DNA of 64,000 nucleotides from Bemisia tabaci (Eukaryota; Arthropoda; Insecta; Hemiptera; Aleyrodidae), in NCBI RefSeq assembly GCF_918797505.1, contig NC_092802.1:8761480-8825479 (forward strand), written 5' to 3'. Below the pieces are notes generated by a model, which was not told the origin of the DNA, searched no databases, and saw only the letters and a program-made list of their open reading frames with translations. Every line of letters begins with the position of its first letter. Position 1 is the stretch's first letter. Positions 23,405 through 63,955 of this stretch are shown here, one piece after another. Position numbers and translations under genes: made by a program.

Positions 23405-23952
23405 CGGAGGGTATGGATTCGATCGACATGAATCGATCGAAAAATGAAAACGTGAATCGATCGACATGAATCGATCGACACCGATTCGATCGACATATTA
23501 TTAAAAGACCGGTGTCGATTCGATCGACATGAATCGATCGAAAAATTAAAACGTGATTCGATCGACATGAATCGATCGACACCGATTCGATCGACAGTTA
23601 ATTTAAAAACACCCGTACCGATTCGATCGACATGAATGGATCGAAAAATGAAAACGTGAATCGATCGACGAGAATCGATCGACACCGATTCGATCGACAA
23701 AATTCGATCGACTCACGGGTTTGTCGATCGACTCACGGATTTGTCGATCGATTCACGGGTTTGTCGATCCACTCACGGGTTTGTCGATCGATTCACGGAT
23801 TTGTCGATCGATTCACGGGTTTGTCGATCCACTCACGGGTTTGTCGATCGATTCACGGTTTGTCGATTGATTCACGGTTGTCGATCGATTCACGTCGATC
23901 GATTCACGTTTTCATTTTTCGATCGATTCATGTCGATCAAATCCATACCCTC
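23405..23952. repeat. CGATCGA satellite folded as a giant inverted repeat
   Basis: Dense repeats of TCGATCGA with spacers such as catgaa and attcacgggtttg. The outer arms GGGTATGGATTCGATCGACA and TGTCGATCAAATCCATACCC, and the sub-arms CGAAAAATGAAAACGTGAAT, are inverted. Between 23705 and 23900 an 18-20-bp unit (GTCGATCGATTCACGGGTTT) runs in tandem. It ends only 39 bp before the coiled-coil exon. Confidence 0.9.
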
Positions 23953-23991
23953 CTGATTCTTCGAGCATTGCATGGGTACGATTGGTTTCAG

Positions 23992-24321
23992 GTGGTGGAG
24001 CTGCGCCGGAACCCGGGGGGCTCGATCGACAAGCGGATCCGGGCGACGCTGCGGCCGATGTCGTCGAAGATGCGGCGGGACTCGTCCGAGCTGGAGGAGA
24101 AGATGCGGGAGGCCAAGGCCCAGAACCAGCAGTGGCGGAAGATGATGATGGAGCGGGACAACGAGCTCCAGCAGCTGCTCCGCCAGCTCGGCCCCACCCC
24201 CACCGCCCCCACCACGACGACCACCCTCTCCACCGCCTCCGCCGACGACCGCCACCACCCGCCCAGGGCCCCAACCACCAGGCTCCCACCAAGCAGGAGC
24301 TCAACCAGCTCCGCAAGGAAC
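23992..24321 (+). CDS. GABA-B-R2: GABA-B-R2 exon: cytoplasmic coiled coil
   Basis: Acceptor ggtttcag ends at 23991 and donor gtaagt begins at 24322. The exon starts in phase 0 with VVELRRNPGGSIDKRIRATL and continues RPMSSKMRRDSSELEEKMRE, then a heptad-rich helix (NQQWRKMMMERDNELQQLLR) that should pair with the R1 coiled coil. After that comes a C-rich stretch coding Pro/Thr. The exon length (330) ends in phase 0, but the next exon needs one leading base. In the last 45 nt the neighbouring frame reads TKQELNQLRKE, which looks more like a real continuation than the primary frame. A one-base loss in the C-rich run (about 24185-24290) would explain both. Either an assembly error or a real lesion is possible. 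Confidence 0.82.
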
Positions 24322-24349
24322 GTAAGTACATCGAAACTCAAGTCATTTC

Positions 24350-24796
24350 TAGAGTCCCTTTATACCCAGAGTTGAGACAACTCACTTTTGGTTGGGCCAG
24401 GGTTGGGCTGAAAGTGGCCTAAAAAAAAATCCAATTCTGATTGGTTCTCTCTCATGGAGGCCGAAACGAGTGCACCAAGATGGCGGTACCTCGAATGTCA
24501 ACAAGAATAATGAAAATATTACCTAATTGTGGTTTATCAAGAGTAAATTGTTATTTCTATCGGTCCAAAATGACAATAAATTAAGAAATTATTCACAAAC
24601 CAATCTCATTTTCTTTTTAATTGATCAATTTGTTTATGTTGTTGTTTTTGTGTGACAGATATCGCAGGATTCCTGATCCTTATCCCTCAATATCGTTCGT
24701 TTGGGTGCACTCGTTTCGGCCTCCATGGCCAGCCAAGGCCGGCTGCCAGTCAGCTGATAATCGAGTTGTCTTAACTCTGGGTATAAAGGGACTCTA
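24350..24796. mobile_element. hAT-type MITE with 8-bp target duplication
   Basis: TIR TAGAGTCCCTTTATACCCAG and inverse. The flanks GTCATTTC (24342-24349 and 24797-24804) are identical, the 8 bp expected for hAT. It starts 28 bp after the coiled-coil exon. A related element, with its own target duplication, is at 31248-31706. Confidence 0.88.
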
Positions 24797-27259: not shown

Positions 27260-28273
27260 ATGCTAAAAAAAAAGTGTATGCTAAACGTCACTAATTACGG
27301 ATGCTAGGACTTAGTGAGTTTTTGGACCACTGCTCTCTTTTTGGGCCGTAGTATCTTGATTTATTTTGCGAGGAAAGCTCCGTACTTTTGATGGATGCCT
27401 AAAATATGCATTCCTAATATATTAGAGCGCCTTCAGTTTCGTATGATACTGTGCAATACCTCTGGTGTGAAATAGTTGCTTCAAGCGCCGTGGCACGCTG
27501 CGGTGCGGCAGGCGAGCAGCCAGCGCGAAACGCCGTTGGCGCCTACAAACCTAACAGGGATACTTCACGCGTTGCGCAATGCGTGAAGTATCCCCGTTAG
27601 GTTTGTAGGCGCCAGTGCGTCGCCGCTCCGCTTTGTGTTAGCCTCTAATATTTAATCTGGCGGAGTCAGCGTTATTCAACTCATGATTTTGAAATGTTTG
27701 CACATCCTGTATGGATTTTTCTCGTTTTAATTGATGAAAAAAATATGTATTAAAGGAAAATATAACGTGTGTTTTGTAAATATTAAGGTGGTTCCGTATG
27801 AAACTTAATGATTTCCAAAGCACACGAATTGCTACACAATTTCTTATAGCCTTTTATAATAGATGGCGAAAAAGCAACAGCCAGGCGATAAAGTGTAAAG
27901 CCCGGCCCGGCTGCATAATTTTTTATTGCTTCGTATAGCCCGGCCGTATGATTTTCTCCGCACTCTACAGCCAGCTTTATGATTTTCTGTAGCCTTCTTT
28001 AACCGGCTATAAGAATTCCTATGGTATTTTGAAACGCACACTGAAAAAAATAGTATGCTGTTTTAGCACCTAGGATGTCAAAAACGTGTCTGGTGATCCC
28101 AAATTGCTGCCTGTACTGCCCTCGCAGTTAACTTTACATCCTACGAATGCAAATTAAACTGCGTGGGCAATCAAGTTAGCATCTTAGGATGACCAGACAC
28201 ATTTTTGACATCCTAGGTGCCAAAATTAGCGTACCATTTTTTCGGTGCAGCTCTTATCGCCAATTTTTACCAG
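27260..28273. mobile_element. Foldback element with 74-bp hairpin core (copy 2)
   Basis: Hairpin core at 27538-27613. The right end CGCCAATTTTTACC is the terminal sequence shared with the 51-kb and 53.8-kb copies; the left terminal part is missing. A CACTG MITE (28039-28247) is nested in its right end. Compared with the 51-kb copy it lacks the 268-bp LTR-like insertion, providing the empty site for that insertion. Confidence 0.8.
28039..28247. mobile_element. CACTGA MITE nested in foldback element
   Basis: CACTGAAAAAAATAGTATGC at the left and ...TACCATTTTTTCGGTG at the right, with TAGCACCTAGGATGTCAAAA and inverse inside. The uninterrupted site in the 51-kb foldback copy shows the borders exactly. 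The only duplicated target bases appear to be CA. Confidence 0.8.
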
Positions 28274-40073: not shown

Positions 40074-40506
40074 TGTCATGGCCTTGAACAAAGCACTGTC
40101 GAAATCCGGTTGACGGCGATGACGTCAACGAGTGTTTACTCGTTGGCACATCGCATCTCGGCCGCGTTTCGGCAGCGCATATATAAGGCCAGGGCATCCT
40201 CACGGAGACAGGATTCTGGCGCTGATAGCTGACGCTCCGTTATCAGCCTAGAACATTGGTTTGGCGAGTTTCGCTAAAACCTCCCCACGTGACTTGGCGA
40301 ATATTCGCTTTAGTCCTTGGCTTGGCGACATCGGCGCTGGAGCCCCCCCCCCCCCCCCCCCCCCTCTGCGTCGGAGCCTTGGGCCGCTGCTCATCCTGTA
40401 GATTTTGTTGTAGGTATGCTTGCTTCAATATCAATATGAGTGTTTCATAGTCAATCGTGTTGTCTGTCCCACACATCCCACGCATCCCCTAGGGGGGATC
40501 ACAACA
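40074..40506 (+). repeat. 5' LTR of the Gypsy-type element
   Basis: 433 bp, TGTCATGGCC...ATCACAACA. Contains TATATAA at 40180-40186, a C22 tract near 40343, and no clear AATAAA. Directly after it, TGGTGGAGGCTTGAGG (40507-40522) is in the position of a primer-binding site and begins with the TGG complementary to a tRNA CCA end. The tRNA is not identified. Confidence 0.95.
40180..40186 (+). promoter_or_regulatory. TATA box of the 5' LTR
   Basis: TATATAA 106 bp into the LTR. The identical motif is at the same offset in the 3' LTR (50682-50688). It is the likely core promoter for the genomic transcript. Confidence 0.6.
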
Positions 40507-40615
40507 TGGTGGAGGCTTGAGGTTCTTTCCCAGTACCCCCCCCCCCCTTCCATTCTTTTTTTTCTCTCTTCCTCTCCTTCATTCTTTACGTATTATTACC
40601 GAATGTTTTACCGCT

Positions 40616-40921
40616 ATGGGATTAATTATTAGAACGGATTTTTCAAACACAGAAATTTTTGCTTTTCTCATAGATAATGACGTTATTATAGCAACCGCAA
40701 ATAGGAATTTCACCCTGAATGAACAAAATTTAAGCATATACGAAAAAGAAATTGTATCAATTTATTGGGCGGTAAAATTGTGGGAAAATTGTCTTGAATA
40801 TCGTACTACGATAGTAACGACAAATTTGCAAATCTACGGCGAAATGACAGTTCTAAATTCACCCAATAATTCACTTCTAAAAGAATTAGAAGGGTACAAT
40901 TGCATATGGGAATTGGACTAA
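40616..40921 (+). CDS. ORF0: RNase H-like domain upstream of gag
   Basis: A 101-residue open frame between the 5' LTR and gag. Residues 30-70 resemble the RNase H domain of this element's own pol: RNFTLNEQNLSIYEKEIVSI against RTLTKTEQNYGISERELLAV, then TIVTTN against TVVTDH. EQN and the glutamate position are kept (EQN 36-38, EKE 43-45), while the last catalytic Asp position is Thr/Asn (67-70). An Asp at 8 (DFS) could be the first acidic position. The frame ends in TAA (40919-40921), 12 nt before the gag ATG and in the same frame. It looks like a captured or duplicated, probably catalytically dead, RNase H segment. It could instead be an N-terminal part of gag expressed by readthrough. Confidence 0.6.
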   Translation: MGLIIRTDFSNTEIFAFLIDNDVIIATANRNFTLNEQNLSIYEKEIVSIYWAVKLWENCLEYRTTIVTTNLQIYGEMTVLNSPNNSLLKELEGYNCIWELD

Positions 40922-40933
40922 TTAGTTTATCAA

Positions 40934-42418
40934 ATGGCAAGCATATTTATCATAATTAACGGAAAAAAGTGGAAAGTAGTATGTGCTGATTTAATCCCCC
41001 TTGTCAAGGCAAATTATCCTACAGAAAATAGAAAGTCTCAATGGTCATATTCCGAGTTTAGTAATCTGGTAAAACACATCCCACGCAATGTTCTGATAGA
41101 CTTCATTAATGTAAACACTAACTCTGAAATTTCAGTAGAAGATTCAACAGTAGATGTTACATTAGATAATTCAGATGCAGAGGCAGTGGTAGAAAAAACC
41201 CAGCGTCAAGATTCTCCGCAAGTGCAAAACCAAGAAACTGCACCAACTCCATTTGTGTATAATGATGATGGAACTTTGAAAAATGTCCATGTTTTAAACA
41301 TTCCTGCTTTGACTGAGGCCTTCAAAAGTCTATATCAATTACCGTACAATTTTGCTACTATAGAACACGCTAGGAAACAATTAAGTAAACTCGAGAAAGA
41401 TAGGAGTGAGAAACTCAAGGAATCAACTAGATTAAGACCTCAAAATTCGAGTAAAATGGCCACCGTTAGTATGCAACCCATCAATTGGGAACTACCAAAA
41501 TACAACGGGTCCTCGGAACCCGAGGATTACATACAAAAAGTTGAAAACATGGCCAAAGTTGGAAAATGGGATGACGGTTACACTGTAGGAATTGCAGTTA
41601 TGGGATTAACAGGTAACGCAGATCTGTGGTATAAAACCACTGGTAAGAAATTGAACAGTATGACATGGGTAGAGTGGAAAAAGGAATTTTTAGCAGAATT
41701 TAAAAACATCAGTGGAGGAGTAGGTATGGATTGGCACATTTTTCTGAATAGGAAGCAGAAGCAAAACGAAACCCCTCAGGCATATATTTATAATAAAATT
41801 TATCTTTCTGAGAAACTGAAACCGAAACCATCAGAACAGCAATTAGTGGATTTTGTAACCGAAGGTCTATTTTCACATATCTCAAAACCTCTTTTCACTC
41901 TCAAGAGCAAAACTATAGACGAATTAAAAGATAATCTAGTAATAATCACGAAAAGTATCACTCTCTCCGGAAATTCTAGTGAACAACCGGAGAATAGTGT
42001 GAACAGCATCTCCTCTGATTTGAGAATTGAGAAGTTAGAAGAGATGATGTCACAACTTTTGACCGTAACCAAGGATTTGCAAAACAACAAAAGCAAAGTC
42101 AATAATTACAGGAATAGAGGCGGAAACTCAAATAGAGGCAGAGGAAATTTCAGAGGAAATTTCAGAGGTAACTTTAGAGGAAATTATATTAACGCCAATG
42201 GTAGAAGCTATAGTAGAGGCAGAGGGCGACATAGTTTTTACAATGACAGAAACAGATCGCAATCGCAAAGGAACGATAATTTTAGAGATAGATCCAGAAG
42301 TAATTCTCCTAACAGATCATATCGATGTAAATTTTGTTCCGGAACTAACCATAGAGAAAGCAAATGCTTCAAGAAGAAGGAATTTCTAAAAGCAGAGCTC
42401 AATAAAATGGAAAACTAA
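40934..42418 (+). CDS. gag: gag polyprotein
   Basis: 494 residues. An N-terminal region of about 170 residues has acidic and Pro-rich linkers. The capsid-like core runs from about 180 to 330 (INWELPKYNGSSEPEDYIQ at its start, the WVEWKKEFLAEF block characteristic of retrotransposon gag). A basic RG-rich segment (RGNFRGNFRGNFRGNY) and an RS-rich segment follow, then a single zinc knuckle CKFCSGTNHRESKC at 465-478 of the form CX2CX4HX4C. The protein should form virus-like particles and bind the element RNA. The frame is uninterrupted. The pol frame opens 13 nt before the gag stop in the -1 register, the arrangement expected for -1 frameshifting. Confidence 0.9.
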   Translation: MASIFIIINGKKWKVVCADLIPLVKANYPTENRKSQWSYSEFSNLVKHIPRNVLIDFINVNTNSEISVEDSTVDVTLDNSDAEAVVEKTQRQDSPQVQNQETAPTPFVYNDDGTLKNVHVLNIPALTEAFKSLYQLPYNFATIEHARKQLSKLEKDRSEKLKESTRLRPQNSSKMATVSMQPINWELPKYNGSSEPEDYIQKVENMAKVGKWDDGYTVGIAVMGLTGNADLWYKTTGKKLNSMTWVEWKKEFLAEFKNISGGVGMDWHIFLNRKQKQNETPQAYIYNKIYLSEKLKPKPSEQQLVDFVTEGLFSHISKPLFTLKSKTIDELKDNLVIITKSITLSGNSSEQPENSVNSISSDLRIEKLEEMMSQLLTVTKDLQNNKSKVNNYRNRGGNSNRGRGNFRGNFRGNFRGNYINANGRSYSRGRGRHSFYNDRNRSQSQRNDNFRDRSRSNSPNRSYRCKFCSGTNHRESKCFKKKEFLKAELNKMEN

Positions 42419-43179
42419 AAAGCCCATACAGAGAAGGCCCGCCTGGAAGGGCTACAAAGCGAGAAGGGCCAATACAAAAAGTAACCTTTAACGAATCCCC
42501 ACTCAAAATCGTGAGAAATAAAGAAACAAGTTATTCAAAAAACACAGTAAAATTATTTGATTCTCTTTTGCTTTTGCAATCTATTTCTGTCAATATTAGA
42601 TCTAGTGTAAGTGTAATAGGGCAAGTTCAATCAAAAAAAATCCAAATAATCTTTGACACAGGCTCGACTATTAGTGCTATCTCGAAAGATTTAGTCTCTA
42701 ACTTAACTGTTTTCAAAACACATGAGAAAATCTTCTCAGCAAAAAATGAAGCAATCAGCATTTTAGGCGCAACCAACACGACCGTGAAATTCGCAGGTGT
42801 CGAATTTCCAGTGGAGGTGAAAGTACTCAAAAATCTTTCAGCAAAGATGGTTTTGGGCTCAGATTTCGCGGAACGCTACAAAGCGCAATTAAACTTCCAA
42901 ACGGGAGTATTGACTCTTGAAATATCAACAAACAAGATTAGTCTGCCTATGAAATGGAAAACAGAGGAGAAAAACACGTCAATTTTTGCAGCCGCGGAGT
43001 TGCATAATGGAACGAAAATAAAGTCTTGCGCAGCTCTTCATATTAAAGGACAGATAAATAATGCAAAGTTACCAATCCTTATTGACACGGGTTCATGCGC
43101 AAACATTCTGGATAGCAAGTACGTAAAGAGGCAACAAATAAGTAAAACCAAATTTACAGGGAATTTAAAAAACAGCTGA
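42406..43179 (+). CDS. pol: pol part 1: retropepsin and start of a second retropepsin
   Basis: Opens 13 nt inside gag in the -1 frame. It contains a complete retropepsin-like domain with FDTGSTISAIS (DTG at 42655) and the closing strand MVLGSDFAERYKAQLNF near 42850. A second domain begins with LIDTGSCANILD (DTG at 43084), 429 nt further on. The frame then stops at 43177-43179, just after an A6 run; the continuation lies one frame over. Retropepsins normally act as dimers of a one-DTG chain, so two in tandem could form a single-chain enzyme. That is inference. Confidence 0.8.
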   Translation, partial: NGKLKSPYREGPPGRATKREGPIQKVTFNESPLKIVRNKETSYSKNTVKLFDSLLLLQSISVNIRSSVSVIGQVQSKKIQIIFDTGSTISAISKDLVSNLTVFKTHEKIFSAKNEAISILGATNTTVKFAGVEFPVEVKVLKNLSAKMVLGSDFAERYKAQLNFQTGVLTLEISTNKISLPMKWKTEEKNTSIFAAAELHNGTKIKSCAALHIKGQINNAKLPILIDTGSCANILDSKYVKRQQISKTKFTGNLKNS

Positions 43180-43465
43180 TGGTGAAATTTTAGAAATAAT
43201 GGGAGCAACGGAGATCGAAATTCAGGTTGAGGGCTTTAAATTTAAAGAAACAGCTTTCGTAGCAAAATCTCTCTCAGTGCCTGTAATTTTGGGAACCTTT
43301 TTCTTAGAAAAATTTAATGCAAACATTGACTTTTCAAGAAGTCTTATCTCACTTCAGCATCCAAATATTGAAAGTCCAGTCGTCACGAGTATTTTTTGGA
43401 AAGGTCAATATAAGAACATAATTAAAGATGAAAATGAAAAAAAACACCTTTCAGACCCTCTGTAG
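43173..43465 (+). CDS. pol: pol part 2: C-terminal half of second retropepsin
   Basis: In the +1 frame relative to part 1. It carries the flap-following segment (ADGEILEIMGA) and the closing strand VILGTFFLEKFNANIDF, matching the closing strand of the first protease domain in layout. Then comes a linker rich in Ile and Lys, and the frame ends at 43465. The next open frame overlaps it across an A8 run (43437-43444). This is a fragment of the same coding unit and not an independent gene. Confidence 0.75.
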
Positions 43466-45476
43466 CATCTATGATGCTTGCGTTGAACCAGTCAAGGGAT
43501 CAAAGGCAGTAACAGTTGCCAAATCGGTAACAATTGGTCCATTTCAAAGTAAGAAAATAACTATTAAAATTAAGGATGGATTTCCAGCAGAATTCGGATA
43601 TCTTTTATTTAAGAGGAAATATAGAAAACATCAAGATTTAATTTTCCCAGACGGAATTTTTCATGCGAAAAAATACCTTAATATAGTGATTAGCAATAGG
43701 TCAGAGACGCCTTATATCTTGAGGAAATTCGACAGATTGGGGACTTTTGAAGAAGCGGATGTAATGCCCGTAGAGAAGATCAACACAGTACAATTAGAAG
43801 ATAGCACAATACAAGAAAAAGTAGAACGTTTTATAATTGACAAAAAGAGAACAGACGAAGAAAAGAAACAAGGTCTTGAACTTTTAACTGAATTTATTGA
43901 TGTTTTTCAATTTAATAAGAAAAATTTTAAGGCAGGACAGGCTGATTTTCCACCCGTCGTTTTAAAAAAGACAAGTGATGAGATTAAGAACACTCCTCAA
44001 TATCCTAGTGGAAAAATTCAGCGAGAGCTTATAAATAAATATGTTCAAGAGTTGAAGGAACAGGGAGCAGTAGTTCCATCGGAAAGTCCTTATAACTCCC
44101 CATTAATACTGGTCAAGAAAAAATCTGGTGATCATAGAGTAGTCTGTGATTACAGGAAAATTAACGAATTATTACAAGGATTTTCATACCCTATTCCCAG
44201 AATTTCGGACATCCTAAACTCCTTGAATGGAACCTCTATGTATTGTGTCGTTGATTTGTTCTCTGGGTTTTCGCAATTGAAATTAGCAGAGGGATTCTCT
44301 CAAGATATAACGAGCTTCTCAACACACAATGAACATTTGAAATTTGTGTGTTTGTCTCAAGGTATTTGTGTTAGTCCGAGTCATTTTCAGAGAATGGTAA
44401 ACCAAACTTTTGCGTCGTTACTTTACACCGATTTACTGATTTATTTGGATGATATTTTGTTATTCAGCCGTACAGGATTCGCTGAAATGTTAGTAAAACT
44501 TAGACGATTTCTTGAAATTTGTAGGTTACGTAATATTAAATTAAATCCAAAGAAATGTATGTTTTTTCTGGATGAAGTAGAATTGTTAGGATTCACTGTA
44601 AATAAATTTGGAATTAGACCGGCAGAATCTCTCACAGAAAAGGTTAAAAACTACAAAAGCCCAACTTCGGCAAAAATGCTACGAAGCTATATTGGATTTT
44701 GTAGTTATTTTCGAGCGCATATTAAAGGTTTTTCAAAAATAGCTGCACCCTTATTGAAAATACTAAGAGAAGACCCAAGAAAATTTGAATGGAGTAAAGA
44801 GGCGGAGCATGCTTTTCAAACTTTGAAACAAAAATTAATCTCCAGGCCTATATTACGCCATTTTGATGAAAAATTGCCGATAGAAATCCATTGTGATGCT
44901 TCAAAATTAGGCATTGGTGGGGTATTAATCCAACTTAGTAAGGAAACTGGGAAACCTCACGCAGTAGCCTATACAAGTAGAACGCTGACTAAAACAGAAC
45001 AAAATTATGGTATTTCAGAACGCGAACTATTAGCCGTTGTACATTGTTGCCAAAAATGGAAAAGTTTTTTATTTGGTATACCCTTTACCGTAGTGACAGA
45101 TCATTCGGCGCTAAAAGCTCAAACAAAAATTGATAGTAAAACAGGTAGACTAAGTAGATTAGCCTTAAAATTAAGCGAATTCAATATCTCTTGGCGTCAT
45201 AAAAGTGGCTCAAAACATTTAGCACCAGATTGCTTGAGTAGATATTTTTCGCTTGAGGAAATAATAAACGCTTCAACCACGGAAGATAAACCAATTTGTA
45301 CAATTGTAAATTCGAAAATTAGTATCGAAAATTTAGCAAAGCTTCAAAAAGAAGACGATGGCTTGAAACGTATTTTTAAGGCAATTGAAACCCCTAACTC
45401 GTGCACAGGTCTAGAAATACGTAGAGCTAAACAGTTTGAGATTCTAGATAACATATTATATAAAAAAACAAGGTGA
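43428..45476 (+). CDS. pol: pol part 3: reverse transcriptase and RNase H
   Basis: 682 codons. Approximate layout: a linker to about residue 185, then the RT fingers (SPYNSPLILVKKKSGDHRVV near 220) and the palm with VVDLFSGF. The catalytic YLDD lies at 339-342, followed by connection sequence. The RNase H domain starts HCDASKLGIGGVLIQ, with the acidic position in ERELLAVV and VVTDHSAL, and ends with the SGSKHLAPDCLSR block. All expected catalytic acids of RT and RNase H are present. It runs from the A8 break at its start to a stop just after an A7 run (45462-45468). The ATG at 43428 is not a natural start: the upstream frame belongs to the same polyprotein. Confidence 0.9.
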   Translation: MKMKKNTFQTLCSIYDACVEPVKGSKAVTVAKSVTIGPFQSKKITIKIKDGFPAEFGYLLFKRKYRKHQDLIFPDGIFHAKKYLNIVISNRSETPYILRKFDRLGTFEEADVMPVEKINTVQLEDSTIQEKVERFIIDKKRTDEEKKQGLELLTEFIDVFQFNKKNFKAGQADFPPVVLKKTSDEIKNTPQYPSGKIQRELINKYVQELKEQGAVVPSESPYNSPLILVKKKSGDHRVVCDYRKINELLQGFSYPIPRISDILNSLNGTSMYCVVDLFSGFSQLKLAEGFSQDITSFSTHNEHLKFVCLSQGICVSPSHFQRMVNQTFASLLYTDLLIYLDDILLFSRTGFAEMLVKLRRFLEICRLRNIKLNPKKCMFFLDEVELLGFTVNKFGIRPAESLTEKVKNYKSPTSAKMLRSYIGFCSYFRAHIKGFSKIAAPLLKILREDPRKFEWSKEAEHAFQTLKQKLISRPILRHFDEKLPIEIHCDASKLGIGGVLIQLSKETGKPHAVAYTSRTLTKTEQNYGISERELLAVVHCCQKWKSFLFGIPFTVVTDHSALKAQTKIDSKTGRLSRLALKLSEFNISWRHKSGSKHLAPDCLSRYFSLEEIINASTTEDKPICTIVNSKISIENLAKLQKEDDGLKRIFKAIETPNSCTGLEIRRAKQFEILDNILYKKTR

Positions 45477-46563
45477 AAATAAGCTAACAGTGATTCCGGA
45501 AATCTTAAAGGAAGATATATTGGAACAAATACATGCAGACCCTCACAGCGGAGGTCACGTGGGCATCGCTAAGACTTTAGAAAAATTAAATAGAAATTTT
45601 TATTGGAAAGGTTGTACAAAAGACGTAAAAGAATATGTTAAAACTTGTGATAAATGCGCTTTTGCAAAAAAAAGATCAGGAAAAGAATTAGGAAAAATTC
45701 ATTCACATGAAATTCCAACGCAGCCTATGGAAAAATTGTGTATAGATATCCAAGGTCCAAACTCGTTATCAGGTGGATATAGATACATCATTTTAGCTTC
45801 ATGTTACTTAACATCGTATGTTTACCTCAAACCTATTAAATCCGCTGATTCAAAGTGTGTAATAGAATTTTTCAAAGAAATGTTCTCCATTTTCGGATTT
45901 CCGAAGCAAATTCAGACGGACAAAGCAAGTTATTTTACATCAGAGGAATTAGAGAACTTTCTTAATCAAGTAGGGGTCAAACACAGTTTTTCAGCAGGAT
46001 ATGCCCCATGGCAAAATTCCAAGAGTGAGAGAAATTTTTCTTTTGTAGGCAATTGTTTAAGGGCATACTGCAATCCAGACACTACAGACTGGAAAGAATA
46101 CGCAATTTGTGCAATGATAGCCCATAATTCAACAAAAAATTGCACTACAGGAATTTCCCCGCATAAACTTTTATTCGGATATGATTTTAGAACACCGCTT
46201 GAAGCAGCAATACGCCCACCTGGTAACGAAGTTTCTATTCAAGAGAGATTAGACAAAATTAGCGAATATAGGGAAGAAACCAAGGTATTAATAGAAAAGG
46301 CTAGGAAAAAGCAGGAAGAATACAAAAACCAACGATTAGCCGACGCACCCTTTAAAGTAAATTCCAAAGTCTTATTATATATGCCAGAGAAAAAAAAGGA
46401 ACTACACGGAAAATTGAAAATACAGTATATCGGTCCATTTTTGGTCAAACGGAAAATTGGATTATCCATGTTCGAAATCGAGGATTTACGAACAGGAAAG
46501 ACGGGAACTCAGATTGCACACGCTTCTAGATTAAAAACTTTTTATGAAAGAAAGGCGACGTAG
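45472..46563 (+). CDS. pol: pol part 4: integrase
   Basis: An HHCC zinc-binding module (HSGGHVGIAKTLEKL with CDKCAFAKK) is followed by a DDE core: CIDIQGPN for the first Asp, IQTDKASYF for the second, and QNSKSERNFS for the Glu. A basic C-terminal domain with an SH3-like strand order (KVLLYMPEKKKELHGK, YIGPFLVKRK) ends at the stop 46561-46563. The acidic triad appears intact. It is separated from the RT part by a one-base shift at the A7 run. Confidence 0.88.
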   Translation, partial: GENKLTVIPEILKEDILEQIHADPHSGGHVGIAKTLEKLNRNFYWKGCTKDVKEYVKTCDKCAFAKKRSGKELGKIHSHEIPTQPMEKLCIDIQGPNSLSGGYRYIILASCYLTSYVYLKPIKSADSKCVIEFFKEMFSIFGFPKQIQTDKASYFTSEELENFLNQVGVKHSFSAGYAPWQNSKSERNFSFVGNCLRAYCNPDTTDWKEYAICAMIAHNSTKNCTTGISPHKLLFGYDFRTPLEAAIRPPGNEVSIQERLDKISEYREETKVLIEKARKKQEEYKNQRLADAPFKVNSKVLLYMPEKKKELHGKLKIQYIGPFLVKRKIGLSMFEIEDLRTGKTGTQIAHASRLKTFYERKAT

Positions 46564-46586
46564 AGTGAAACATTGTTGTTTGTTTG

Positions 46587-46627
46587 TTCTAGAGTTGGAT
46601 AACCACACAACCCACCCCCCACTACAG
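46587..46627 (+). promoter_or_regulatory. Candidate splice acceptor for env mRNA
   Basis: CACACAACCCACCCCCCACT followed by ACAG at 46624-46627, 16 nt before the env ATG. Errantivirus env is made from a spliced subgenomic RNA, so an acceptor is expected here. The donor was not identified. Confidence 0.4.
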
Positions 46628-46643
46628 GTGATTTATTTTGGAA

Positions 46644-48434
46644 ATGGAGGTCCTATTCTTCTTCCTGCATCTATGTCTCATGTTCAGAAACTGTGAACCT
46701 TTTAAAATACAACCTCTAAACACGGGAGTAATTTTTGAAAGGGAAACGGACGTTATTTTGTCAACACATACATGGACAGTCTCAGTAAATTATGATTTAG
46801 ATGAAATTTTTAATGAAAAACTGCAATTATTACAGCAAATAGGCAATTTGTCATACACCATTAAAAGTTTTGATGAAGATAGTGAAATAAAAGGGCGTTT
46901 CAACGAGTTATTAACTTCTTTAAATTCTTCAGTAGAAAATTTAGATAAAGAAATATCAGCTTTAATAAACTTCGTACCGAAAAGCAGAAAGAAAAGAGCC
47001 TTCAATACAGCTGGAACAGTTATTAAATTTCTTTTTGGCAATCCGGATCACAAGGATAGAAAAAAATTATTCTCCGAAATTCATAAATTAAAATTGGATA
47101 CAACTCGAATTTCAGTCGACAATAAGTTACAGAAAGTTAAAATTGACAATGCTGAAAGAACTTTAACGGGAGCATTGAACCTTGTTAACGAATTAAGTTA
47201 TAATCTAACTTACTTTAACAACGGATTCCAAGATAAAATTAATGAAAATTTCCAAAATTTTTCCCTCAAATTTCACAGATTGCGACACGAAAATGTTATT
47301 GAGTTAGAGCTTTCGTCATTAATTTTCTACATTATAGAGATTCAAAACGCATTTTTTAACCTTCATGTAGCAATTCAGTCTGCAATTGAATCCAAATTAT
47401 CACCATTTTTATTCTCCCCCGATGTTCTGAACGCCATGTTAAACCTTATCAACTCAAATATTAAAAAACCACTAGAGACAATTGCGACTGTGTACAAAAA
47501 TGAAATGTACGATTATTTTGCTTTAACAAAGACCAAAGTCTATTTCTTGGATTCAAAACTGACTATTGATATTTATTTTCCTATTGCTGATTCGGGTAGT
47601 TATTTTGAGAAATACAAAATTATTCCAGTTCCTCAAACAGTCTCAAATAAGTCGAGTTATTTTGTAAAATGGGATCTAGAACCCTTTCTATTGGTAGATG
47701 CAAACAGGCGATTTCACACAGTACTTAACGATGTACAAAAAAATAATTGTAACGGAAATAAATTGGTAATATGTACTTTAAAACTACCATTACACACTGT
47801 AAATAATCAGCTGTGTGAATTTGCCCTGTTCATGAACAAAACTACGAAGTCGTGCAAGAGATCGGTTCAAATTCTACGAAATAATGATATTATAGCAATA
47901 AATAACGCCTGGATTATAACAGTAGTCGAAGCCTCAACCTTAACCTTTACATGCGCTGAAAAAGAACCTCAGACAGTTGATGTTGTAGGTACCTTTTCAG
48001 TTACAGAGGCTGAAACTTGCGAAATTTCAAATAAATTCTTTAAATTACAAACATCATATGCAATCAAGTCGAATTTCAAGTTTGCAATGCACTCTTTTAA
48101 AATCGCAAAATTTGGACCGATCAAAGAATCTGAAAAACCACCGCTAATCCATCTCGAAACGAATTCGCAGCTCAGTTCAAAAATAAACAAACTGATCGAA
48201 ACGCACAACAATCAGCTAAGTTTTACAACTTTTCTGCAGCAAATCGAAGATAGTACGTCGGAACGCACGGTTAAAACCGAGCATGTGTATGCGGGAACTT
48301 TCTCGATCTATTTTGCCTTCACCAGCGTTATTATCATAACACTGATTTGGAAATATAAGCAAATTTTAAAAAGATCCATAATAGAGACAACAGATGAACA
48401 GGAACAAAGAAGTACCTTAGTACAGGTTAATTGA
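46644..48434 (+). CDS. env: env: class I-type envelope glycoprotein
   Basis: 596 residues from the ATG at 46644. The N-terminus MEVLFFFLHLCLMFRNCEPF is a signal peptide. A furin-type site RKKR at 115-118 is followed by a hydrophobic stretch with KFLFG, the position and look of the fusion peptide in insect errantivirus and baculovirus F-type proteins. Several NxS/T sites and cysteines follow, with a membrane anchor near 555-575 (FAFTSVIIITLIW) and a short basic tail. The frame is intact, unlike pol. In the family this protein mediates membrane fusion at the cell surface; whether this copy is expressed is unknown. Confidence 0.88.
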   Translation: MEVLFFFLHLCLMFRNCEPFKIQPLNTGVIFERETDVILSTHTWTVSVNYDLDEIFNEKLQLLQQIGNLSYTIKSFDEDSEIKGRFNELLTSLNSSVENLDKEISALINFVPKSRKKRAFNTAGTVIKFLFGNPDHKDRKKLFSEIHKLKLDTTRISVDNKLQKVKIDNAERTLTGALNLVNELSYNLTYFNNGFQDKINENFQNFSLKFHRLRHENVIELELSSLIFYIIEIQNAFFNLHVAIQSAIESKLSPFLFSPDVLNAMLNLINSNIKKPLETIATVYKNEMYDYFALTKTKVYFLDSKLTIDIYFPIADSGSYFEKYKIIPVPQTVSNKSSYFVKWDLEPFLLVDANRRFHTVLNDVQKNNCNGNKLVICTLKLPLHTVNNQLCEFALFMNKTTKSCKRSVQILRNNDIIAINNAWIITVVEASTLTFTCAEKEPQTVDVVGTFSVTEAETCEISNKFFKLQTSYAIKSNFKFAMHSFKIAKFGPIKESEKPPLIHLETNSQLSSKINKLIETHNNQLSFTTFLQQIEDSTSERTVKTEHVYAGTFSIYFAFTSVIIITLIWKYKQILKRSIIETTDEQEQRSTLVQVN

Positions 48435-48496
48435 CGTTGGTGTGGTGAGCACGTTGTCCGAACTCTACCGCAATTGTGAGTATTTTTTGATCCATA

Positions 48497-48895
48497 ATGA
48501 CACCCTTAGATGAAATTTATTTGAAATTGCTCCGGCAAGACGTAGACTGGTCCTCCTACGAGGAAGATTTAAACAAGAATACGACCAACTCTTCATTTTC
48601 AGGCAAAGCAGTAACGAGGAAGAGAGGGAAAAATTCAAGAAAAATGTATCAGAAGAAAAGAAGAAATATGAAAAAACAACAAAATCGTGGAAAAAAAGGA
48701 GATGATAATAGAAATTTAGTGTTAAGGGAATCATTATCTTCAAAAGATATTCACATCACGGTAAATCAGTTGTATAAGGTATACCAAAACCACTTAACTA
48801 TTAACATCACTGTACCCGAAGGCAATAGTAAAATGAACAACCAACAGGATAACGGCAGTCAGGAATCAGATTCTGACATTGAAATTCTGAATTAA
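48497..48895 (+). CDS. Small basic ORF downstream of env, function unknown
   Basis: 132 codons from ATG 48497, 62 bp after the env stop. A central strongly basic part (GKAVTRKRGKNSRKMYQKKR) resembles a nuclear or RNA-binding signal. Then follows a short segment with IHITVNQLYKVYQNHLTINI, and an acidic end (ESDSDIEILN). No known domain is recognised. Its position after env, the intact frame and the clear compositional blocks favour a real accessory gene over chance. Confidence 0.5.
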   Translation: MTPLDEIYLKLLRQDVDWSSYEEDLNKNTTNSSFSGKAVTRKRGKNSRKMYQKKRRNMKKQQNRGKKGDDNRNLVLRESLSSKDIHITVNQLYKVYQNHLTINITVPEGNSKMNNQQDNGSQESDSDIEILN

Positions 48896-50575
48896 GTCAT
48901 TGTATATAGACACTTTGAGCAAAGGCATAATTTCTTGTAGATAATTTTATTCTTAAGTAGGTAAATTCACGCGATTTTGTGAACAATAAATTCTTTTAAA
49001 TTAAGTTATTGTATGTAGATACCTTGAGCGAAGACATAATTCCTTGTAGATAATTTTTAAGTAAATTCACGTGATTATGAGAACAGTAAACTCTTCGAAA
49101 TTTTGGTTAATGTGTAAAAATTTAATGTCGAATTTTTTTTGCCGATAAAAAAGTCAATTCGAATTTTAATAACTCTTAGAGATTTATCCTAATTGACTTT
49201 TCCGTCCATAGATTTGACAAAGTCTCTCTGCGATAATCTCCTTGGTTGCATATCACTTTGAGTCAATAAAATTTAGTAGTAGGAACTATACCTTATTGAG
49301 TTAGTGATAATCCAATCAAAGGATTATTTGGAAGCATGAGTTTTCTAGTCTTCGAGAGGGGTGTGCTGGGTCAACAGAACAAAATGGAGTACGTCTAAGC
49401 TTACAATTTCTTTTGACTTGGTGCACCTATCTCGTCACTAGATTCTTCTTTTTGCACGACGGATATTAACTTAAATAGTTTTCCATTGTAAACGTATGTC
49501 TACTTTTAGAGTTAAATTCTGCATTGGAAATATGTAAATATCCAGAAGTGCTAGATTACACTTATTTCATTGTCGGAACAAAAATCATGATTTTTAAAAT
49601 AAAAAAAAAAAAAAAAAAAAAAGGTAAATAATTAATATTCAGAATAATGGAACTAATGTATGCGTGGAAACATTTCTAAACCTAATTTATTAAGTTACTA
49701 TTATTAGTCCAGTTGCTCGCTCCTCGTTTTTCTTATATTGTTACAGGGTCGTTTTCAGTAGGTGTGGCATGGTGGAAGAGTCAGTAACAACGGATTGAGC
49801 ACATTTGGCATTGGCACACGGCATGGTCTAATTTGGCAACGTTTCAGGAGTTCTGCTCACAGGGAAGTTTCATGATGCCATTCGCTTCCCTGCTGTCACT
49901 CATTTACAGTCTACGCATCCGCAATTTCACACCAAAGTGGCGACCAAATCGCGGGAACCTTGACCAGGAGTTCTGCTTGCAGGGAAAGTTTCATGATGCC
50001 ATTCGCTTCCCTGCTGTCACTCATTTACAGTCTACGCAGCCGCAATTTCACACCAAAGTGGCGCCCAAATCGCGGGAACCTTGACTTCGCTGGCCAGACA
50101 CCAGTCGACTCATCTCCTGTCATCGCGACCAGCGGCCCCGGCGGGATCTCCCAAAGGCGGAAGGCATCCCTCAGCACACTCTTTGGACGCATCGACGGCA
50201 GGGACGTATCACCCGAAACGTCTCTCATTTATCTCCAGTCCGGCATCCCCATATAGGACAGTATGGGACATCGATCAGCGGAGGTATCAACATATCATCC
50301 GGATTCCTGAACGTTCGAGGGGTCGAGGCCGACACAGCGACCTAGCCTTCTATCCTATCCATGCGAGCCTGTCAATCACTCATCCTTGTTTGCTGGTCTT
50401 GGAAGCCAGCTCTCCGAAAGAAGCCACCCTGAAGATTTTTTTTTTGGTTGTGAGAGGGGCACAATGCCTTAAGTTAGTTGTTTTTTTTTGTAAGATGAAC
50501 AGGAGCTCAAGGTTCAATTCTCCAGAGTAAGAAAAGAGGAAAAATTCGGGTCGAATTTTCTTTCCGAAGGGAGCA
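48896..50575 (+). other. Long non-coding 3' region of the element
   Basis: 1.68 kb between the last ORF and the 3' LTR. It includes a diverged tandem duplication (units at about 48895-49000 and 49001-49105, sharing TTCTTGTAGATAATTTT and AATTCACG), AATAAA running into an A22 tract (49601-49622), and a precise 120/121-bp tandem duplication (49845-49964, 49965-50085). A GC-richer part follows. A polypurine stretch GTAAGAAAAGAGGAAAAA (about 50526-50543) and AAGGGAGCA directly before the LTR are the candidate polypurine tracts. Confidence 0.7.
49845..50085 (+). repeat. 120/121-bp tandem duplication inside the element
   Basis: CAGGAGTTCTGCT...GGGAACCTTGAC occurs twice back to back with only a handful of differences, indicating a recent duplication within the element lineage. 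Confidence 0.92.
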
Positions 50576-51008
50576 TGTCATGGCCTTGAACAAAGCACTG
50601 TCGAAATCCGGTTGACGGCGATGACGTCAACGAGTGTTTACTCGTTGGCACATCGCATCTCGGCCGCGTTTCGGCAGCGCATATATAAGGCCAGGGCATC
50701 CTCACGGAGAGAGGATTCTGGCGCTGATAGCTGACGCTCCGTTATCAGCCTAGAACATTGGTTTGGCGAGTTTCGCTAAAACCTCCCCACGTGACTTGGC
50801 GAATATTCGCTTTAGTCCTTGGCTTGGCGACATCGGCGCTGGAGCCCCCCCCCCCCCCCCCCCCCCCTCTGCGTCGGAGCCTTGGGCCGCTGCTCATCCT
50901 GTAGATTTTGTTGTAGGTATGCTTGCTTCAATATCAATATGAGTGTTTCATAGTCAATCGTGTTGTCTGTCCCACACATCCCACGCATCCCCTAGGGGGA
51001 TCACAACA
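50576..51008 (+). repeat. 3' LTR of the Gypsy-type element
   Basis: 433 bp. Differs from the 5' LTR by one base (gagagagg against gagacagg), by C23 against C22, and by five against six G near the end. TATATAA at 50682-50688. Confidence 0.95.
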
Positions 51009-51300: not shown

Positions 51301-51913
51301 CAAGCTAAAATAAATTGCCCCGATCATCTCTTCTGGGGGAGTTAAAGGCGGATGATGAGGGGAGGGGCTGAGAAAGCATCAGTTTATTACACCCCTAAGT
51401 GAAAATTTCAAAAAAAGTATTTCTTATCCTTGAAAATACAGAAATAACATAGCTAACACTTCAAAACCCCGGTAAAAATTGGCGATAAGAGCTGCGAATC
51501 AATATACCATAGGAATTCTTATAGCCGGCTAAAGAAGGCTACAGAAAATCATATCGCTGGCTGTAGAATGCGGAGAAAATCATACAGCCGGGCTATACGA
51601 AGCGATAAAAAATTATGCAGCCGGACTATAGTTCCTATCGCCGGGCTTTACACTTTATCACCTGGCTGTTGCTTTTTCGCCATCGATTATAAAAGGCTAT
51701 AAGAAAATGTGTAGAAATTCGTGTGCTTTGGAAATCATTAAGTTTGATACGGAACAACCGTAATATTTACAAAACACACGTTATATTTTCCTTTAATACA
51801 TACTCTTGTGGCGCCATCGCCACCAGCCAACCAGAGCGAAGCTCCTTGTGCCTGGCACCCTCGTCACCAGCCAATGAGAGCGCAGCCCGTCATGCTTTCC
51901 CGCGCGCCCGCAC

Positions 51914-51920
51914 TATAAAT
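51914..51920 (+). promoter_or_regulatory. TATA box in the histone-like insertion
   Basis: TATAAAT preceded by CCAAT 43 bp upstream. It predicts a start near 51945 and a transcript of roughly 105 nt if it ended just after the stem-loop. Confidence 0.5.
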
Positions 51921-52031
51921 ATGTGCGGCCGCGAGCTCCATTTCACCATTCTCTTGCAGGTCCTCTCACACGCCACACGCTCCCTCTCCGACTCGCCATC
52001 ACCTGAGCACCTTGCTCCATCATTCGAAAAC

Positions 52032-52047
52032 GGCCCTTTTTAGGGCC
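52032..52047 (+). terminator. Histone-type mRNA 3' stem-loop
   Basis: GGCCCT TTTT AGGGCC, a perfect six-base stem with four-base loop, preceded by AAAAC and followed by ACCA as in insect histone genes. The purine-rich downstream element of histone pre-mRNA is not obvious. Confidence 0.6.
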
Positions 52048-52690
52048 ACCATTTATGTAGCTAGCACATCCACACTCTTTTTCATCAATTGAAACGAGAA
52101 AAATACATACAGGATGTGCAAATATTTCAAAATCATGAGTTGAATAACGCTGAATCCGTCAGATTAAATATTAGAGCCGAACACAAAGCGAAGCTGCGAC
52201 GCACTGGCGCCTACAAACCTAACAGGGATACTTCACGCATTGCGCAACGCGTGAAGTATCCCTGTTAGGTTTGTAGGCGCCAATGCGTGTTCCGCGCTGG
52301 CTGCCCGCCTGCCGCACCGCAGCGTGCCACGGCGCTTGAAGCAACTATTTCACACCAGAGGTATTGCACAGTATCATACGAAACTGAAGGCGCTCTAATA
52401 TATTAGGAATGGCAGGCATCCATCAAAAGTACGGAGCTTTCCTCGCAAAATAAATCAAGATACCACGGCCCAAAAAGCAGAGCAGTGGTCCAAAAACTCA
52501 CCAAGTCCTAGCATCCGTAATTAGTGACGTTTAGCACACACTTTATCGCCTGGCTTTGAGTTGCTTACTCGCCATCGGCTATTAAAGGCTATAAGAAATT
52601 GTGTAGCCGGCTATAAGCTATTGGAAATCTTACAGCCGGCCGTAGGTCTATAGTTTTTTGGAACACAGATTCTACTGCCAATTTTTACAA

Positions 52691-53802: not shown

Positions 53803-54289
53803 AAATTGGCAGTAGAATCTGTGTTCCAAAATACCATAGACCTCTGGCCGACGGCCGGCTGTAAGATTTCCAATAGCTTCTATAGCCGACTACACAATTT
53901 CTTATAGCCTTTTATAGCCGATTGCGATTAAGCAACTCACAGCCAGGCGATAAAGTGGATGCTAAACGTCACTAATTACGGATGCTAGGACTTAGTGAGT
54001 TTTTTGACCACTGCTCTCTTTTTGGGCCGTAGTATCTTGATTTATTTTGCGAGGAAAGCTCCGTACTTTTGATGGATGCCTGCCATTCCTAATATATTAG
54101 AGCGCCTTCAGTTTCGTATGATACTGTGCAATACCTCTGGTGTGAAATAGTTGCTTCAAGCGCCGTGGCACGCTGCGGTGCGGCAGGCGGGCAGCCAGCG
54201 CGGAACGCGAATTGGCGCCTACAAACCTAACAGGGATACTTCACGCGTTGCGCAATGCGTGAAGTATCCCTGTTAGGTTTGTAGGCGCC
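53803..54289. mobile_element. Foldback element with 74-bp hairpin core (copy 4, truncated)
   Basis: Starts TGGTAAAAATTGGCAGTAGA, the inverse of the end at about 52690, and runs to the hairpin 54214-54289, where it stops abruptly. The other half is missing. Confidence 0.75.
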
Positions 54290-61275: not shown

Positions 61276-61714
61276 CAGTACTCGCGAGGGATCGCGAAAA
61301 CTGGTTTTCATTCTGTCTGCTGCAATGGTGCAACATCTTAATCTGATTTTCGGGAAATTCGAACGGTAGCTCTTGTTGTCAGCCACAGCTCTCGAAAGGA
61401 AAATTAACAAACTTGTTAATTTAATTGAAAATTTCTGCAAAAATTGTTGAATTATTTAAATTAGGAAACTTCCTTTGGTCTGTAGCACGTAAAAATGTCA
61501 CCTCGCTCTCTTGCAAATTCTTTGCACTCAATTTTTGTACATTTGACTTGCATTTTCAGTTCTGTTGTATGGATTGCAATTTATTTTTGCAATTCATTTT
61601 GATTCAAACCATTTTTAGAAGTTAGGTATCGATTTTGTCGCTCTGTTTTTTCTTAAATTTTCTCGAAGTACAAAAATGTTACTGTAAGAGTACCGAAGAA
61701 CACTTTGAATTTTC

Positions 61715-63955
61715 GGATACGAAGTGACTCAGTCGCGGTTAAACGAGAGACCCGCGCGTATAAGGTAGCATCGCGGATAAGCAAGAGACACAGTCGCGGA
61801 TAAGCGAGCGACGCAGCCACGGACGAGCGAATCAGGTAGTCGCGGATAAGCAAGTGACGCAAACGCGGATAACCGAGACTCACATGCGAATGAGGTAGTC
61901 TCTGACTAGAGAAAGACACAGTCGTGGATAAGCGAGTGACCCAGCCGCAGACGAGCTCATTAGGTAGTCGCGGATAAGCAAGTGACGCAACCGCGGTTAA
62001 GTGAGAGACGCAGCCGCGGATGAAATGGTCTCGGACAAGCGAGCTACAGTCGTGGAAAAGCGAGTGACCCAGCCGCTGACGAGGTAATTAGGTAGCCGCG
62101 GATAAGCGAGTGACGCAGACGCTGATAAGCGATAGACGCCGTCGCGGATAAACAAGTGACGCAGACGCGGATGAAGCGAGAAACCCACGCGGATAAGATA
62201 GCCTCGGATTAGCGAGAAACGCAGTCGCGGATAAGGGAGTGACCCATGCCGCGGATCAGCAAATCAGGTAGTCGCGGATAAGCGAGTGACGCAAACGCGG
62301 ATGAGGTAGTCTCGGACTAGTGAGAGAGATCATCGTGGATAAGCGAGTAACCCAGCCGCAGACGAGCTCATTAGGTAGTCGCGAATAAGCAAGTGACGCA
62401 ACCGCGGTTAAGTGAGAGACGCAGCCGCGGATGAAATGGTCTCGGACAAGCGAGCTACAGTCGTGGAAAAGCGAGTGACCCAGCCGCTGACGAGGTAATT
62501 AGGTAGCCGCGGATAAGCGAGTGACGCAGACGCTGATAAGCGATAGACGCCGTCGCGGATAAACAAGTGACGCAGACGCGGATGAAGCGAGAAACCCACG
62601 CGGATAAGATAGCCTCGGATTAGCGAGAAACGCAGTCGCGGATAAGGGAGTGACCCATGCCGCGGATCAGCAAATCAGGTAGTCGCGGATAAGCGAGTGA
62701 CGCAAACGCGGATGAGGTAGTCTCGGACTAGTGAGAGAGATCATCGTGGATAAGCGAGTAACCCAGCCGCAGACGAGCTCATTAGGTAGTCGCGAATAAG
62801 CAAGTGACGCAACCGCGGTTAAGTGAGAGACGCAGCCGCGGATGAAATGGTCTCGGACAAGCGAGCTACAGTCGTGGAAAAGCGAGTGACCCAGCCGCTG
62901 ACGAGGTAATTAATTAGGTAGTCGCGGATAAGCGAGTGACGCAGACGCGGATAAGCGATAGACGCCGCCGCGGATAAACAAGTGACGCAGACGCGGATAA
63001 AGCGAGAAACCCACACGGATAAGATAGCCTCGGATTAGCGAGAGACGCAGTCGCGGATAAGGGAGTGACCCAGCCGCGGATAAGGGAGTGACCCATGCCG
63101 CGGACGAGCAAATCCGGTAGTCGTGGATAAGCGAGTGACGTAAACGCGGCTGAGGTAATCTCGGACTAGTGAGAGACATTATCGTGGATAAGCGAGTGAC
63201 CTAGCCGCAGACGAGGTAATTAGGTGGTCTCAAGCGAAAGACGGAGTGGCAGATAAGCGAGTGACGCAGACGCGGATAAGCGAAAGACCCACGTGGATAA
63301 GGTAGTCTCGGATAAGCGGAAGACGCAGTCGTGGATAATGGAGCGACCCTGACCTAGCCGCGGACGAGCGAATCAGGTAGTCGCGGATAAGCGAGAGACG
63401 CAGACGTGGATACGCAAGCGACGAAGCCGCGGATACGTAAATGACGCAGTTGTGGATAAGCGAGGGACCTAGCCGCTGACGAGCCAATCGAGTAGTCGCG
63501 GATAAGTGAGATATGGAGTGGTAGATAAGCGAGTGACGCAGACGTGGATACGCGATTGACAAAGACGCGGATACGTAAGTGACGCAGTCGTGGTTAAACG
63601 AGTGACGAAGGCGCGGATACGTAAGTGACGCAGACGCGGATAAGCGAGGGACCTAGCCGCTGACGAGCCAATCAGGTAGTCGCGGATAAGCGAGACATGG
63701 AGTGGTAGATAAGCGAGTGACGCAGTTGTGGTTAAGCGAGTGACGAAGACGCGGATACGTAAGTGACGCAGACGCGGATAAGCGAGGGACCTAGCCGCTG
63801 ATGAGCCAATCAGGTAGTCGCGGATAAGCGAGATATGGAGTGGTAGATAAGCGAGTGACGCAGTCGTGGCTAAGGGAGCAATCCAACCGTACGGACGAGC
63901 GAATCAAGTAATCGCGGATAAGCGAGTAACACAGTCCCGGATAACGAGGAAAACT
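61715..63955. repeat. Minisatellite, 20-24-bp units with 411-bp higher-order period
   Basis: Units like GCGGATAAGCGAGTGACGCA repeat throughout, with variants (CAGCCGCGGACGAGC, TTAGGTAGTCGCGGATAAGC). A longer block repeats with period 411: CCGCGGTTAAGTGAGAGACG starts at 61991, 62402 and 62813, and the first two copies are virtually identical. Minus-strand frames (YPRLRHSLIRDYL) stay open because of the repeat. I treat them as non-coding. Confidence 0.92.

Follow-up and report, generated by a model that had tools for sequence, protein, structure and literature searches.

The locus described here raises the question of what a 268-bp insertion might be that carries the 3' stem-loop of a histone mRNA but no histone gene. 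It lies in the whitefly Bemisia tabaci, in the window C10:8761480-8825479 of a 610-Mb assembly; the window is the whole stretch of 64 kb that was analysed. The features of the insertion and its surroundings are as follows.

51807..52074, + strand: probable solo LTR of family A, 268 bp, TGTGGCG...TCCACA (empty site, relatives in its own genome, TG..CA ends, 4-bp target site duplication or TSD)
51803..51806: left copy of the TSD CTCT (flanks of the insertion compared)
52075..52078: right copy of the TSD CTCT (flanks of the insertion compared)
51827..51875, + strand: U3 with CCAAC and CCAAT boxes within two imperfect repeats (CACCAGCCAAYSAGAGCG), read directly; putative promoter role
51914..51920, + strand: TATA box TATAAAT, read from the sequence; start site predicted at about 51940-51945
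51945..52052, + strand: putative R region, from the predicted start site to the predicted cleavage site past ACCA
52026..52051, + strand: histone-mRNA 3' stem-loop, GAAAAC followed by GGCCCTTTTTAGGGCC (52032-52047) and ACCA (Rfam RF00032, pattern search, hairpin in the fold)
52059..52066, + strand: possible degenerate downstream element AGCTAGCA, near the GAGCA position of host histone genes
51657..52228, + strand: host foldback-family repeat surrounding the insertion, which served for the empty-site test

The initial annotation, made from the sequence of the window, proposed that this DNA had moved in as a unit with TG...CA ends and a CTCT duplication. The ends (TG at 51807, CA at 52073-52074), the TSD and the coordinates are confirmed. 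Of 62,990 window positions tested, 350 have a 4-bp duplication at a spacing of 268 bp, and one has TG..CA in addition. The same annotation reported empty sites in two foldback copies. The joined flanks match window positions 27889-27591(-) at 94% over 300 bp and positions 3951-3734(-) at 75% over 223 columns, in both cases without the 268-bp unit. This part of the claim stands, but the target bases have diverged in both copies, and a single ancestral CTCT at the insertion target is what we infer. There is no second copy of the unit within the window at E 0.01. The foldback repeats around the insertion are found at window positions 52199-52288, 54208-54289, 27537-27620 and near 3630, as a near-perfect palindrome of 82-90 nt.

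The CCAAT box (at 51871), TATAAAT and the perfect stem-loop with the flanks AAAAC and ACCA were all found where they had been placed, the stem-loop 118 bases past the TATA start. As had been noted, the unit holds no histone coding sequence; the sole ATG between the TATA box and the stem-loop is at 51921, directly past the TATA box. In 476,300 Markov copies of the unit the consensus stem-loop 16-mer did not appear. Its chance expectation on both strands of 64 kb is 4e-4, or 1e-6 together with ACCA. A looser search with up to two mismatches is expected to match 0.35 times in each window, and such a match was present in 31 of 100 shuffles. The Rfam model RF00032 gives the window stem-loop 27.9 bits, which is below the gathering score of 34, with an E value of 6.9e-6 in 501 bases. 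The fold of 130 nt around it is unexceptional (z -1.31).

Two other features were observed in the window. An errantivirus-like Gypsy element at 40074-50999 has protease, RT, integrase, a Baculo_F-type env and an LTR pair. It resembles the stem-loop elements described below in its TG..CA ends and 4-bp TSD (GTGC, by eye), but differs from them in the Baculo_F-type env, in having other LTRs and in having no histone stem-loop. Open frames of repeated peptides (SRSTHGFVDRF and SLAYPRLR types) at 23602-24375 and 61653-63903 are perhaps satellite-like DNA.

A search of the genome with the 268 bp gave 14 matches, the window copy counted. Family A comprises the window copy and the loci L007, L008, L009 and L010, which share the start TGTGGCGCCATCG. 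L009 and L010 are solo LTR-like with TG..CA ends, and their TSDs are GAGT and AGTA. L009 keeps the 6-bp stem, with the loop TCTC and ACCA, while L010 has one broken stem pair. L007 stops at the stem-loop and is without U5, and L008 diverges ahead of the stem-loop; neither is delimited. The other matches have only bases 182-245 of the query in common, that is, the stem-loop and the bases preceding it, and they lie in the sister LTRs of family B, which begin with TGTGGCGGC.

At a locus on C1 two family B LTRs are found 6.4 kb apart, with CTTT on both outer sides and an identical stem-loop in each. The second LTR carries a palindromic insertion of about 143 nt. Between the LTRs are Pfam matches to gag (DUF7041), RT, RNase H and integrase, as pieces in several separate frames. 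Copies flanking gag and pol had been named as the proof of an LTR. They exist for the related families B, C and D, which flank gag or pol, but not for the window copy's own subfamily, of which the genome search gave solo or defective copies (L007-L010) and none bearing gag or pol. In family C the stem-loops are 4577-4588 bp apart and the LTR is 251-262 bp long.

In the 610 Mb there are 141 exact stem-loop matches by pattern search, while the reversed control has none. Among the 100 listed of these, histone clusters contain 24, of which one on C8 has an LTR-type context, and the other 76 are found outside them. Those 76 form 19 same-strand pairs and no opposite-strand pair at 3.5-11 kb; one of the 19 belongs to a tandem array, and two pairs share a stem-loop. 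Eight pairs were examined, those with both members among 30 fetched loci, and each of the eight proved to be an LTR pair with 96-100% identity and a perfect 4-bp TSD. The young pairs span three families. Among single or derived units, equal 4-bp flanks are present in seven of the eight tested, a survey in which six further loci are undelimited and L024, L028, L038 and L052 lie outside the sample. The exception, L049, has no equal 4-bp flanks and has polypurine-like sequence ahead of it, as is expected of a 3' LTR. That such copies are not continuous with histone coding regions is borne out on C1-C2, where a histone peptide motif (11 motifs, up to 900 nt upstream) was found at none of 30 stem-loop loci.

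Several derived arrangements were observed in the course of this survey. L019 (4243-5113) and L018 (4551-5207), both reverse-complemented, are short non-autonomous derivatives with 871 and 657 bp between TSDs, and L014, with three tandem units of about 2536 bp each, is grouped with them. These derivatives have a small Cys-rich frame, and the stem-loop is present in the 3' repeat only and not in the 5' repeat, as if they came from spliced or recombined RNA. At L080 (C5:26623480-26624330) three LTR-type contexts with the stem-loop follow each other at intervals of 270 bp, linked by the primer-site-like remnant GTGGTGACC. At L064 (C8:47.47 Mb) a histone-like match that has an internal stop and its own stem-loop is located some 1.2 kb from a stem-loop LTR-type context; in a third nearby unit GGCTCT..AGAGCC represents a paired change in the stem.

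The coding region and the LTR borders allow the group to be placed. A CHCC finger, CX2HX9CX3C, is present in gag at all ten chosen 5'-LTR loci and is invariant in an alignment of 11 gags. The putative primer sites adjoining the 5' LTRs are TGGTGACTCCCGAC, TGGTGACCTCCGAC, TGGTGACCTCGACG and TGGTGACCCC. They are of the TGGTGAC type and start one base past the LTR; L052 reads TGGTGGC. The LTR start TGTGGCG is found in 10/10 LTRs, nine of which had been cut out by that motif. In the part of PMC2582038 that was available, CsRn1-like elements are described by a CHCC gag, a tRNA-Trp primer site and 4-bp TSDs, and in Table 3 of PMC3601003, a source likewise consulted in part, CsRN1 LTRs start with TGTGGYG. 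The gag finger, the TSD and the LTR start make it highly probable that the stem-loop elements are a Ty3/Gypsy group related to the CsRn1 clade. The window copy is, with similar confidence, a solo LTR of this group.

The stem-loop itself led to families C, D and F, and a segment that includes it led to family B, so that the conservation seen there is partly ascertained. The gag sequences provide a sample that was not selected by the stem-loop, and hence the unbiased test of its conservation. The gag search of the genome gave 56 matches. The best 40 were taken, without the lowest 16, and 35 of these are assessable against the listed stem-loops. An exact stem-loop is located within 450 bp upstream of 24 of these 35 gags, and of 19 of the 23 that are near full length. 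Among the four near-full-length gags without it, one has an intact stem with the ACC flank changed to ATG, two have decayed stem-loops and then the usual GAGCAC, and one is without LTR start or primer site. The stems at L088 and L089 are decayed. Both gag copies on C10 that lie beyond the listed stem-loops have the exact stem-loop, and a near-full-length copy on C55 was left out of the count.

A further gag lineage (five matches) has 37-38% identity, and the three stretches read upstream of its gags contain no close stem-loop. The LTR-like start TGTGGCG is present in one stretch, and another, the sole one reaching far enough, has AATAAA past a shared leader. This contrast fits a replacement of the polyadenylation signal in one lineage, as judged from one copy with undelimited LTRs.

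Within the LTRs the stem-loop also stands out, and its retention among copies, on which the initial annotation had made the LTR reading depend, is upheld. Ten LTRs were aligned with MAFFT and six representatives were scored, one per family and two for family A; L010, with its broken stem, was aligned but is outside the six. With gaps counted as differences, mean pairwise identity is 91% in the 24-nt block of the stem-loop, while other 24-column windows average 28% and do not exceed 52%. In four of the ten LTRs (A, A2 and twice in B) the patterns used find a TATA box, and TATA-like variants are seen by eye in the others. Neither AATAAA nor ATTAAA occurs in any of the ten. This absence alone is weak evidence, since the unrelated Gypsy LTRs of the window (423 and 424 bp compared) also have no AATAAA and the GC content of the stem-loop LTRs is high (54-63%).

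It is important to compare these LTRs with the 3' ends of the host histone genes. The genome has 45 matches to PF00125, and the histone genes read in the clusters on C5, C6, C22 and C23 end in AAAACGGCCCTTTTCAGGGCCACC. In 9 of 11 distinct histone contexts, GAGCA or GAGCT starts 11-12 nt past the stem; two H2A forms carry ATGCTACC or TAGCTACC in its place. The GAGCA-like element is a candidate for the host histone downstream element. In the LTRs 15-38 nt are left between the stem-loop and the LTR end, and RAGCW occurs 9-13 nt past the stem in 27 of 33 distinct non-histone contexts, which are not independent, against 7.6% of 20,000 random 30-mers under the same rule. The comparison with histone 3' ends proposed in the initial annotation thus shows both signals of the LTRs to be host-like. 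The contexts that miss RAGCW are the window copy, L007, L009, one unit of L016, L050 and L051, and all except L007 are one base off. The AGCTAGCA of the window copy resembles one host H2A form (tAGCTAcc). The mixed locus L064, scored apart, has RAGCW in 3/3.

The search for a U7 snRNA gave hits below threshold (best 24.2 bits against 34), and 12 of 14 control genomes of prokaryotes gave matches too. The best candidate is a weak one, L081 (C6:45598631-45598685, -), which holds TTCTCTTT and the Sm-type site AATTTGTCTAG.

These arrangements allow us to propose that the 3'-end signal of the LTR in this Ty3/Gypsy group is probably of the histone type and not AATAAA, and that the RNA would be ended by histone-type cleavage. 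Transcription would start about 30 nt past the TATA box, and R would run to the histone stem-loop, beyond which the remaining bases usually contain the GAGCA-like element at a host-like place. SLBP and the U7 machinery would bind the stem-loop and the downstream element and cut past ACCA. The resulting genomic RNA would finish in the stem-loop and would lack a poly(A) tail. If this RNA behaves as histone mRNA does, its production, export, translation and persistence may take place mainly during S phase. The SLBP, cleavage, tail-less end and S-phase steps are borrowed from the known histone pathway (PMC1924863 and PMC7026596, in the parts consulted; partial background on histone ends is also given by PMC9756948). 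That R is ended by histone-type processing, as the initial annotation suggested, is supported by the stem-loop together with the host-like downstream element. The S-phase link is an inference only, drawn from analogy. The more general statement, that one lineage of LTR retrotransposons has given up polyadenylation in favour of the histone-mRNA 3' pathway, so that its genomic RNA is tail-less, ends in an SLBP stem-loop and follows DNA replication in its production and use, appears rather more probable than its negation.

An alternative would be that the stem-loop has another use, such as SLBP-dependent export or translation, RNA packaging or 3'-end protection, and that the RNA receives an ordinary poly(A) tail, for example through signals in the flanking DNA. 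AATAAA or ATTAAA is indeed present within about 300 nt downstream of the LTR in five of the nine looked at. Searching nr with gag gave 14 matches, four of which are predicted B. tabaci genes; gag relatives beyond those are also among the 14. Ordinary strand transfer demands that R end within the LTR, where none of the ten has AATAAA and where the stem-loop occupies the expected R/U5 border, usually followed by the host-like downstream element. Such another use is therefore unlikely, and histone-type cleavage is preferred.

It could also be that an LTR once recombined with a histone gene and that the stem-loop is now a functionless relic. The match of both signals to host histone genes would be explained in this way, and some copies are decayed. 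However, a passive relic would hardly account for the identity of the block relative to the rest of the LTR alignment, or for a stem-loop kept in the young copies of three families and in most of the near-full-length gag-anchored copies, and we regard it as very unlikely. Least probable of all, to the point of being nearly negligible, is a small DNA transposon or a mobile histone-gene fragment that kept promoter and 3' UTR and lost the coding part between them: a promoter that leads through a short leader straight to the stem-loop, with nothing coded in between, the 5-bp inverted end TGTGG/CCACA and the lack of a gag/pol-bearing family A copy in the genome search would agree with it, but the related LTR pairs with PBS, gag/pol and TSDs, and the 30 loci on C1-C2 without an upstream histone motif, argue against it.

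Other origins were rejected. A histone pseudogene or moved histone fragment was rejected in view of the LTR pairs and the motif-free upstream regions on C1-C2, and a DNA transposon or MITE by inverted ends of only 5 bp and the existence of LTR pairs. For SINE or LINE-like retroposition no A-tail is seen, and the likeness of the flanks past ACTCT (4/6 bases, by eye) is unconvincing. Viral contigs, which hold no whitefly DNA, gave nothing with the stem-loop, an RNase H piece or the gag alignment; four matches by the promoter pattern were judged on reading to be due to chance. One scan of prokaryote genomes was empty, and in another the single match was taken as chance from its title.

If the proposed exchange of 3'-end pathways is correct, this group of retroelements would be a second user of the histone 3' signal, and an R region could end without polyadenylation. 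Such elements would be under-seen in poly(A) libraries, and they would serve as a natural experiment on the coupling of RNA to S phase by the histone pathway. Among the matches listed from the open-licence PMC literature no precedent for histone-type 3' ends in LTR elements was found; PMC5371812 has no bearing on the question. By word count, 'histone' and 'stem' are both absent from the main text of PMC2582038, and 'histone' occurs once in that of PMC3601003, on chromodomains.

Two known systems can be compared with the whitefly elements. The 3' end of replication-dependent histone mRNA (RF00032) resembles them in the stem-loop, the A-rich 5' flank, ACCA and the GAGCA-like element; they differ from it in the LTR location and in having no histone coding sequence. 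The loop is TTTC in the histone-cluster sites read (C5, C6, C22, C23), while the LTRs also have TTTT, TCTT, TCTC, TTAT and TTTA. The CsRn1 clade (CsRn1, PwRn1 and AgCR), as far as the consulted parts of its descriptions go, shares with the whitefly elements a TGGTGA-type primer site next to the 5' LTR, the CHCC gag, the 4-bp TSD and the TGTGGYG start. The putative whitefly primer sites resemble the CsRn1-type TGGTGAG/CCCCGT/A in the available part of PMC2582038. AgCR1, at 4671 bp with 264-bp LTRs, is near in size to family C. The difference lies in the 3'-end signal: the six Metaviridae LTR models described in the consulted part of PMC3601003, CsRN1 included, have an AATAAA motif, whereas the ten whitefly LTRs lack it and carry a histone stem-loop.
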